DNA from: Pseudomonadota bacterium
GTDB lineage: Bacteria; CALINM01
Reading direction: 5' to 3'
Assembly: GCA_026415985.1 (NCBI GenBank)
Contig: JAOAGA010000048.1
Location: forward strand, 1-13,433
Length of the DNA: 13,433 nucleotides
The first letter of the stretch is position 1; each line of letters begins with the position of its first letter. Position numbers and translations under genes: made by a program. Below, in pieces: positions 771 to 2,984 of the stretch. Below the pieces are notes generated by a model. The model did no database searches. It worked only from the letters and a program-made list of their open reading frames with translations, and was not told where the DNA came from.

Positions 771-799
771 TTGACAGTTTGATGATTGTTTTATAACAT
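771..799 (+). promoter_or_regulatory. Sigma-70-type promoter for the panB leader
   Basis: A perfect TTGACA -35 box (771-776) is followed by a 17-base spacer and TAACAT (794-799), which matches the TATAAT consensus at four of six positions. Transcription should start near 805-807, placing about 105 bases of leader before the panB start codon. The promoter lies downstream of the stop of the previous gene and is the only clear one between it and panB. Confidence 0.7.
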
Positions 800-808
800 T
801 TTTATATT

Positions 809-854
809 ACCGCTTGGATCCGGCAGGACCGAGACGGAAAGGGGATGAGCTAAG
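809..854 (+). ncRNA. Candidate structured leader RNA (riboswitch-like) of the pan operon
   Basis: This GC-richer island in AT-rich surroundings lies between the predicted transcription start and a terminator. One fold pairs 812-815 (GCTT) with 847-850 (GAGC) and 818-821 (ATCC) with 843-846 (GGAT), leaving a two-base GG bulge at 816-817; inside, CCG 829-831 can pair with CGG 835-837. A competing fold pairs TCCG 819-822 with CGGA 835-838. The layout promoter, compact RNA, terminator, ribosome binding site is that of a transcription-attenuating riboswitch. I could not match it to TPP, cobalamin, SAM, fluoride, ZTP, c-di-GMP or guanidine classes from memory. A 'pan' RNA motif is known ahead of pantothenate genes in other phyla, but I cannot confirm that this is one. 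It could instead be a short independent sRNA. Confidence 0.45.
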
Positions 855-863
855 TTTATAATA

Positions 864-902
864 AGCCTTCAGGACTCTTTTCGTCTTGAGGGCTTTTTTT
901 TT
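864..902 (+). terminator. Intrinsic terminator/attenuator immediately before panB
   Basis: AGCCTTCAGGAC (864-875) pairs with GTCTTGAGGGCT (883-894) in an uninterrupted 12-bp stem with two G-U wobbles, a seven-base loop and a run of T to 902. The panB Shine-Dalgarno GGAG begins at 903, directly after the U-tract. A terminator between a promoter and the gene it serves suggests conditional termination. I did not find an obvious antiterminator sequence by eye. Confidence 0.85.
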
Positions 903-912
903 GGAGAAAATT

Positions 913-1707
913 ATGAAGATTACCGTTCCTTCGATATTGGAAAAGAAGCAAAGGAAAGAGAAGATAACAATGCTTACCTGCTATGACTACTCGACTGCAC
1001 TTATTCTTGACAGAGCGGGTATTGATATGATGCTTGTCGGGGACTCAGCAGGTGTTGTTTTTTCCGGTTACGAGAATACCTTACCTGTTTCTGTTGATGA
1101 GATTTTGTATCATACAAGGGCGGTTTCACGGGGAAGAAAGAATGCCCTTGTTGTTGCCGATATGCCCTTTTTGTCCTATCAAGTCTCTGTGGAAGAGGCG
1201 GTTAAAAATTGCGGTCTTATGCTTAAGGCGGGTGCAGAGGCGGTTAAGTTGGAAGGCGGGGTTGAGATATGCGATCTTGTTAATAAGCTGTTTCTGTCCG
1301 GCATACCTGTTATGGGTCATATTGGTTTGACACCCCAATCTGTTAATGTTTTAGGTGGTTATAAAGTTCAGGGCAAAACAGAAGAGACCAGAAAAAAACT
1401 CATTGAAAGCGCCAGGGCATTAGAGTCAGCGGGAGCATTTTCTGTTGTTCTTGAGTGTGTTCCTGAGGAGCTTTCGAAAGAGATAACAGAAATTATTGAC
1501 ATTCCTACTATCGGTATTGGTGCAGGAAGGTTCACCGATGGTCAGGTACTTGTAATAAATGATATTTTAGGGCTCTTTGAAGGTTTCAGACCCAAGTTTG
1601 TAAAAAGATACATTGATTTGGCACCTGTCATAGAAAAGGCTGTTAAGGATTATATAGACGAGGTAAAGGAAGGAAAGTTCCCCGCTGAAGAAAATATTTT
1701 TAAGTAA
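913..1707 (+). CDS. panB: 3-methyl-2-oxobutanoate hydroxymethyltransferase (ketopantoate synthase)
   Basis: PanB transfers a hydroxymethyl group from 5,10-methylene-tetrahydrofolate to 2-oxoisovalerate, giving ketopantoate, the first committed step to pantothenate and coenzyme A; it is cytosolic. The 264-residue length is normal. The Mg-binding residues known from E. coli PanB are present at D44 (VGDSAG), D83 (VADMPF) and E114 (VKLEGG), and the catalytic glutamate at E181 (VLECVP). GHIGLTPQS (135-143) and IGIGAG are also conserved. I chose the ATG at 913, with GGAG six bases upstream; a TTG at 886 in the same frame lies inside the terminator stem and would add nine unconserved residues. It is the first gene of the pan cluster and follows the structured leader, so it is probably regulated by transcription attenuation. 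Identification is secure. Confidence 0.97.
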   Translation: MKITVPSILEKKQRKEKITMLTCYDYSTALILDRAGIDMMLVGDSAGVVFSGYENTLPVSVDEILYHTRAVSRGRKNALVVADMPFLSYQVSVEEAVKNCGLMLKAGAEAVKLEGGVEICDLVNKLFLSGIPVMGHIGLTPQSVNVLGGYKVQGKTEETRKKLIESARALESAGAFSVVLECVPEELSKEITEIIDIPTIGIGAGRFTDGQVLVINDILGLFEGFRPKFVKRYIDLAPVIEKAVKDYIDEVKEGKFPAEENIFK

Positions 1708-1772: not shown

Positions 1773-2624
1773 ATGAGAGTTATAAAGACAATAAAAGAGA
1801 TGCAAAGTATTGCCAAAGGCCACAAAAAAGAAGGTCTGACCATTGGTTTTGTACCTACAATGGGGTTTCTTCACGAAGGGCATCTCACCCTTGTAAGAGA
1901 GGCAAAAAAAATATGCAATGTAGTTGTAGTAAGTATTTTTGTTAATCCCTTACAGTTTGGACCTAAAGAGGATTTTGCCAAGTATCCAAGAGATTTTGAA
2001 AGAGATAGTGCTATGTTACAGAAAGAAGGGGTTGAGTATATTTTTCATCCCGATGGAGAAGAGATGTATGGAAAGGGTTATCAAACCTATGTGGAGGTTA
2101 CAGAGGTTACAAAAAACCTCTGTGGTGCATCAAGACCGGGGCATTTTAAAGGGGTAACAACGGTAGTTTCCAAGTTATTTAATGCGGTTATGCCCGATTA
2201 TGCCTTCTTTGGTGAAAAGGACTACCAGCAACTTGCTACTATAAAAAGGATGGTTGCTGATTTAAATATGGACATTAATGTTATAGGGGTGCCGATAGTA
2301 AGAGAGGCCGATGGACTTGCTATGAGTTCCAGAAATACTTATCTTTCAGAGGAGGAGAGAAAGTCTGCCCTTTGCCTTTACAGGGCTATAAATTTGGCTA
2401 AAGAACTGATTAATAACGGAGAAAGGTCTGCAGAAAAGATACTTTCTGAGGTGGTTAATCTGATTTCAAATACCGCCTTAACTCGCATCGACTATGTGAA
2501 GCTTTGTGATCCCGAAACCCTCGATTATATTGAGACGGGTCTCTTAAAGGGTAAAACTCTTCTGGCATTAGCGGTTTTTGTCGGTAATACAAGGCTAATT
2601 GATAACGCAATACTGGAGGTTTAA
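1773..2624 (+). CDS. panC: Pantothenate synthetase (pantoate-beta-alanine ligase)
   Basis: PanC condenses pantoate with beta-alanine using ATP through a pantoyl-adenylate intermediate. The 283-residue product has the nucleotidyl-transferase HxGH motif in TMGFLHEGH (H34-H37), the FVNPLQFGPKEDFAKYPR pantoate/ATP region, FFGEKDYQQL, and the KMSKS-equivalent loop GLAMSSRN (about 181-188). The ATG at 1773 is preceded by GGAG. It lies 65 bases after panB and three bases before panD, consistent with one operon. No separate ketopantoate reductase (panE) gene is seen in the window; another reductase elsewhere must supply pantoate. Confidence 0.97.
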   Translation: MRVIKTIKEMQSIAKGHKKEGLTIGFVPTMGFLHEGHLTLVREAKKICNVVVVSIFVNPLQFGPKEDFAKYPRDFERDSAMLQKEGVEYIFHPDGEEMYGKGYQTYVEVTEVTKNLCGASRPGHFKGVTTVVSKLFNAVMPDYAFFGEKDYQQLATIKRMVADLNMDINVIGVPIVREADGLAMSSRNTYLSEEERKSALCLYRAINLAKELINNGERSAEKILSEVVNLISNTALTRIDYVKLCDPETLDYIETGLLKGKTLLALAVFVGNTRLIDNAILEV

Positions 2625-2627
2625 TGT

Positions 2628-2984
2628 ATGTTTTACACAATGCTTAAGTCAAAGATACACAGGGCTACTGTAACGGATGCAAGCCTTCATTATGAAGGGA
2701 GTATCACCATAGATGAAGATTATATGGAAAAGGCAAAGATACTGCCCTATGAGCAGGTTCATATCTATAATGTTACAAATGGTAACAGATTCATTACCTA
2801 TGCCATACCCGGTAGGAGAGGTTCAAGGGTCTTCTGTGTTAACGGTGCGGCAGTTCACAAGGCAAACAAAGGCGATATTATAATTATCGCAAGTTATGGA
2901 ATTTATTCGGAAGAAGAGTTGAAATCAGGTTATAAGCCTACAAATATCTATATGGATGAGAATAATCAGGAAATTATTAAGTGA
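2628..2984 (+). CDS. panD: Aspartate 1-decarboxylase precursor
   Basis: PanD makes beta-alanine from L-aspartate for the PanC reaction. It is a pyruvoyl enzyme formed by self-cleavage between Gly24 and Ser25; both are present in HYEGSITID, giving beta and alpha chains of 24 and 94 residues. [26 protein letters not shown] and [13 protein letters not shown] are family signatures. The total of 118 residues is usual. GGAGG at 2615-2619 sits eight bases before the ATG at 2628; an out-of-frame ATG at 2624 opens only a very short ORF. The last codons overlap the next gene by four bases (GTGA). With panB and panC it completes the aspartate-dependent pantothenate branch in one cluster. Confidence 0.97.

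Follow-up and report, generated by a model that had tools for sequence, protein, structure and literature searches.

A single pan-family hairpin as the putative anti-antiterminator of a panBCD leader

The leader of the panBCD operon considered here carries an intrinsic terminator between a promoter and the first gene, and this arrangement poses a question: is termination conditional, and if it is, which element of the leader decides whether panBCD is transcribed? The whole stretch of DNA that was analysed, 13,433 nucleotides long, is referred to below as the window. Its relevant features, all on the plus strand, are the following.

771-799, plus strand: sigma-70 type promoter TTGACA-17-TAACAT, matching the consensus at 10 of 12 positions; transcription start predicted near 806
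810-837, plus strand: pan hairpin (5' arm 810-821, loop 822-825, 3' arm 826-837; bulged A818 and A834), the proposed anti-antiterminator
831-843, plus strand: first strand of the predicted antiterminator helix (pan 3' arm and tail AAAGGG), pairing with 875-887 according to nascent folding and duplex statistics
846-871, plus strand: inner helix of the predicted antiterminator state, 846-851 with 864-866/869-871 (nascent folding)
863-895, plus strand: intrinsic terminator stem-loop, 863-875/883-895, loop 876-882
875-887, plus strand: second strand of the predicted antiterminator helix, comprising the terminator loop and part of its 3' arm (nascent folding)
894-902, plus strand: U-run of the terminator (sequence)
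903-906, plus strand: Shine-Dalgarno sequence of panB, GGAG (sequence)
913-1707, plus strand: panB, 3-methyl-2-oxobutanoate hydroxymethyltransferase, ATG at 913 (TIGR00222, NCBIfam)
1773-2624, plus strand: panC, pantoate--beta-alanine ligase (TIGR00018, NCBIfam)
2628-2984, plus strand: panD, aspartate 1-decarboxylase (TIGR00223, NCBIfam)

The order given in the original prediction, that is, a promoter, a GC-rich segment, a terminator with a U-tract and a panB Shine-Dalgarno sequence abutting it, is real. The terminator was also borne out, although with 13 pairs and not the claimed 12 bp; six of the pairs are G-C, the loop comprises 7 nt, and no other site in the window is as strongly terminator-like. 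The mechanically called open reading frame begins at TTG 886 (886-1707), within the terminator, and the true start of panB is the ATG at 913.

Identity and conservation of the hairpin

The covariance model of the Rfam pan motif (RF01749) reaches 39.4 bits at positions 747-841 and thus passes its gathering score of 36.2, in agreement with the earlier suspicion that the known 'pan' motif might be present. The convincing part of this match is its second hairpin, which occupies 28 nt at 810-837 (CCGCUUGGAUCC-GGCA-GGACCGAGACGG) and whose arms, CCG-CUUGG-A-UCC and GGA-CCGAG-A-CGG, enclose five pairs between the two bulged adenines. The predicted fold of this hairpin, -15.3 kcal/mol (z -2.67), was equalled in 3 of 200 shuffles, and a scan of the window for hairpins with two bulged A yielded exactly one match, on the plus strand; the minus strand gave no match.

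The first stem of the model maps to 747-779, where it contains the -35 box and precedes both the -10 box and the predicted start. Since this stem sits upstream of the -10 box, the transcript should contain one pan hairpin only, and we rejected the stem, overlapping the promoter as it does, as an artefact of a two-hairpin model. The promoter keeps its spacing to the hairpin in both family relatives (loci L021 and L020 of genomes G001 and G002), where it reads TTGACA-17-TACTAT and TTGACA-17-TAATAT with the -10 box ending 10-11 nt upstream of the hairpin. Because of this fixed distance, transcription should begin near 806 and include a single hairpin; with the promoter at 771-799 conserved in these relatives, nothing points to transcription starting downstream of 864, the outcome that had been named as speaking against a leader of this kind.

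The features that define membership in the family (a score above the gathering score, two bulged A and a location upstream of panBCD at 913-2984) are present, and the tandem arrangement, typical of pan RNAs and not required, is absent, as there is a single hairpin. Judged by its sequence, the leader is a member of the known pan family RF01749. Other Rfam matches within the window (BsrG and others) remained below their own gathering scores, and the rest of the genome gave four weak pan matches of 15.7-19.9 bits; all of them were attributed to chance.

According to the passage on pan in the main text of Weinberg et al. (2010, PMC2864571), the motif contains two conserved bulged A and precedes operons of panB, panC or panD, most of the RNAs are tandem, and from this arrangement the authors guessed that a dimeric protein binds; the same passage makes no mention of a terminator, an antiterminator or a mechanism. 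The hairpin in the window is similar to these RNAs in its bulged A, gene context and score, and differs from them in that a single hairpin can be transcribed, a form that does not need a dimeric protein. No experimental study of the pan RNA mechanism was found in the literature searched; such studies may exist outside it. The family is already known; the switch model and the wider regulon described below appear to be new.

How far does the hairpin extend beyond this genome? Its pattern occurred in 23 of 386 genomes sampled around the source genome (reversed control pattern, 0), and a scan of a species-level genome collection gave at least 119 loci. Among the matches listed, the record titles name Deferribacteraceae, Nitrospinota, Nitrospirae, Acidobacteria, deltaproteobacterial lines, Myxococcota and Binatia, as well as Dadabacteria, Methylomirabilis, Chloroflexi, Dormiibacterota, Armatimonadetes, Firmicutes and Spirochaetes. 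The near-invariance of the hairpin sequence is partly due to the search pattern, which fixes bases, and it holds also in pattern-free leaders; among 70 panB leaders picked irrespective of the motif, the structural hairpin was found in 22 on the sense strand and in 4 on the opposite strand. Within the segment 809-854, whose conservation had been proposed as a test, positions 810-837 are conserved: the two outer pairs left unconstrained by the search pattern are standard pairs, of several pair types, in 130 and 119 of 136 loci, and pairing drops to 39 of 136 one step beyond them, the counts excluding a MAFFT alignment that mixed first and second hairpins (first-hairpin types misaligned). The stems proposed originally (812-815/847-850 and 818-821/843-846) can pair, but they occur in no predicted state and are not conserved. 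The compact GC-rich segment to which they were assigned does exist; its true structure is the hairpin at 810-837, and its tail (838-850) would serve as the toehold of the antiterminator helix.

Complementarity between the hairpin and the terminator

Is the terminator a regular companion of the hairpin, and do the two match in sequence? A detected terminator separates the pan hairpin from the gene in 78 of 106 leaders versus 77 of 515 shuffles (p = 3e-32; this and the other p-values are optimistic, since the leaders share ancestry), the scan detecting none in the other 28 leaders. The 5' arm of the terminator is often GCCUUC(C/U)G, which is complementary to CGGAAGG, the last bases of the pan hairpin plus its tail. 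In a duplex test, the pan 3' arm with 8 nt of tail was paired with the terminator behind it. The mean energy was -19.1 kcal/mol with the own terminator (n = 76), compared with -14.8 kcal/mol for 687 other same-locus terminators and -15.1 kcal/mol for reverse complements of the own terminators, 61 of 75 comparisons favouring the true strand (p = 4e-8). When terminators were swapped between leaders, the observed mean was reached in 0 of 5000 swaps.

In 55 non-redundant leaders, the excess was found for the 3' arm with its tail (p = 3e-12) and for the 3' arm alone (p = 6e-8), and neither the 5' arm (p = 0.57) nor the upstream flank (p = 0.61) exhibited excess complementarity to the terminator. 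The tail alone did not exceed control terminators (p = 0.23); pairing of the tail only (GAAGG with CCUUC) was therefore rejected as the whole explanation, the 3' arm being required. Such specificity for the 3' arm is what an antiterminator built from the pan 3' arm predicts.

These results also bear on another reading, in which the terminator serves the upstream gene (49-669), which ends approximately 190 nt ahead of it, panB is transcribed from an unseen promoter behind it, and the complementarity is a by-product of similar hairpin composition. We consider this very improbable: the complementarity, which is specific to the 3' arm, is greater than hundreds of other terminators show, a conserved promoter lies upstream of the hairpin, and the U-run abuts the panB Shine-Dalgarno sequence, leaving no room for a promoter.

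Nascent folding and the proposed switch

Another important point is when such pairing could occur. The RNA of the window was folded stepwise, base by base, from 806. The pan hairpin remains intact up to 882; for RNA ends at 883-890, the minimum is the state with the helix 831-843/875-887 at its fullest, in which the pan hairpin has come open starting at its base and the inner helix 846-851/864-871 retains part of the terminator 5' arm; from 891, the terminator prevails and the pan hairpin is restored. As computed, neither the sensor hairpin nor the terminator can coexist with the helix 831-843/875-887, which is unable to grow if the pan hairpin is locked. When G-U pairs are allowed, the duplex extends to 14 contiguous pairs (830-843/875-888), a length reached by 0 of 687 control terminators and, when the downstream region was shuffled, in 14 of 2000 trials. 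Disruption of the pan hairpin followed by its restoration was observed in 42 of 76 leaders versus 73 of 228 constructs with control terminators (p = 4e-4), which means that control terminators also yield a switch in approximately one third of constructs. This course is clear in the window and in L016, L020, L021 and L028, and not clear in L037.

In the full-length RNA, the off state (-36.6) is favoured by a wide margin over the on state (-24.5), and antitermination must therefore be kinetic; in the window, the antiterminator gains little free energy over the locked pan hairpin, at most 3.1 kcal/mol, at 887. Approximately 14 nt of RNA are held inside the polymerase. With RNA exposed to ~888 when the polymerase leaves the U-run, the decision falls at 883-890.

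On the basis of these comparisons and folding models, we consider it likely that the panBCD leader is a transcription attenuator, in which the mRNA begins with a single pan hairpin that is the sensor and acts as an anti-antiterminator. As the polymerase passes the U-run, only the RNA up to ~888 would have emerged, and the toehold tail AAAGGG (838-843) would pair with CUCUUU at the terminator loop and invade the pan hairpin (831-843/875-887). This invasion would block the terminator, and panBCD would be transcribed. If a factor held the pan hairpin shut, the invasion would be stopped, the terminator would form and transcription would end. The attenuator that had been suggested from the sequence thus stands in that a conditional terminator most likely governs the pan operon, whereas the stems proposed for it were wrong.

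The sign of the switch could in principle be reversed: termination would be the default, with a stable pan hairpin and a stable terminator, and under pantothenate shortage an activator would open the hairpin. In favour of this, the full-length RNA has the off state as its thermodynamic minimum; against it, no factor is needed for the antiterminator to be the minimum within the decision window, and we regard the opposite sign as improbable.

In the attenuator with an anti-antiterminator, the pan hairpin would play the role that the PyrR binding loop has in pyr leaders. PyrR attenuators of pyr operons consist of a small anti-antiterminator hairpin, an alternative antiterminator and a terminator just upstream of the gene; the logic is the same as in the window leader, and the sequence and the pathway differ. 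To our knowledge, there is no PyrR-like regulator of pan genes. Small size and attenuation logic are also found in preQ1-I and other small riboswitches, and both are shared by the window leader, whose hairpin is without a recognisable pseudoknot or pocket. A weak resemblance to the His operon leader (RF00514) in the leader of the relative L007, 35 bits versus a gathering score of 49, was rejected as a chance match to the terminator, and RF00514 was not found in the window by the Rfam search.

Gene context, regulon and signal

What could such a sensor report? Among the matches listed, the hairpin is immediately upstream of panB, panC or panD in the majority of loci. In 16 loci among these matches, the gene of a DUF2520/Rossmann protein, a candidate ketopantoate reductase, lies behind the hairpin and ahead of panB or panC (L051, L053, L055, L058, L067-L069, L085, L087, L105, L116, L134, L140, L149, L150 and L155). 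All five spirochaete loci listed (L065, L086, L098, L123 and L159) have an ECF transporter ATPase gene directly after the hairpin, followed in L065 by an S component and the type III pantothenate kinase CoaX. In the clostridial locus L052, the hairpin and a terminator are followed by genes for a BioY-like protein, an ECF S component and CoaX (oriented position 1767, downstream of the hairpin). This S component, whose family match is to ECF S components generally, is a candidate pantothenate transporter, and it is from its neighbour genes that we infer pantothenate as its cargo. As pantothenate and CoA are common to the synthesis, uptake and phosphorylation genes, the signal is probably one of the two.

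Pan-like hairpins were also noted before an OPT transporter, phosphonate-type and peptide-type binding proteins and a SIS-domain gene (L113, L093, L127 and L045), some of them maybe by chance.

If the attenuator model is accepted, the factor that holds the hairpin shut is somewhat more probably an RNA-binding protein reporting pantothenate or CoA status than the metabolite itself; a protein, as in the PyrR case, is the likelier choice. The metabolite riboswitch would be the same switch with no protein, the 28-nt hairpin itself binding pantothenate, CoA or a precursor and blocking the antiterminator. It would agree with a sequence that is near-invariant over many phyla, more than a stem requires, and with a regulon spanning pantothenate synthesis, uptake and phosphorylation. 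However, 28 nt folded into one hairpin, with two bulged A and a variable loop, make a very small RNA to house a metabolite pocket, the pan passage of Weinberg et al. (2010, PMC2864571) proposed protein binding, and no CoA riboswitch is known according to a 2022 review (PMC9971707); this possibility is thus rather unlikely, though one to be kept in mind.

In four of the five spirochaete loci, a Shine-Dalgarno sequence lies within a few bases of the hairpin. Together with short leaders such as L023, with the Shine-Dalgarno sequence right behind the hairpin, these loci suggest a translational version of the switch. They are likewise relevant to the idea that the product is a small RNA (806-902) acting in trans. 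A terminated leader with two strong hairpins would be stable, but the hairpin is mostly found in cis before pantothenate genes, and in the spirochaete loci it stands beside a Shine-Dalgarno sequence in place of a terminator, which makes a trans-acting product hardly credible.

Whether all these loci form one system is, in our estimate, an evenly balanced matter: the pan hairpin may be the anti-antiterminator, or the translational switch beside the Shine-Dalgarno sequence, of a pantothenate/CoA regulon in more than 10 phyla, which would comprise synthesis genes, ECF uptake and CoaX and would depend on a widespread sensor, either an RNA-binding protein or, as the first natural case, an RNA that itself senses pantothenate/CoA. 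A regulon uniting pantothenate synthesis, uptake and phosphorylation narrows the signal to pantothenate or CoA, and a testable switch, specified as to which strands pair, when and with which sign, shows which positions to mutate and which binding partner to look for in experiments.

Two further observations concern the position of the hairpin. In L023, L119 and L129, the distance from the hairpin to the panB start is 22-26 nt, and the conserved tail AAGG seemingly is the Shine-Dalgarno sequence. In L025, L026, L029-L033 and L036, the hairpin starts at, or a few bases from, the apparent end of an upstream open reading frame and would therefore be intercistronic.
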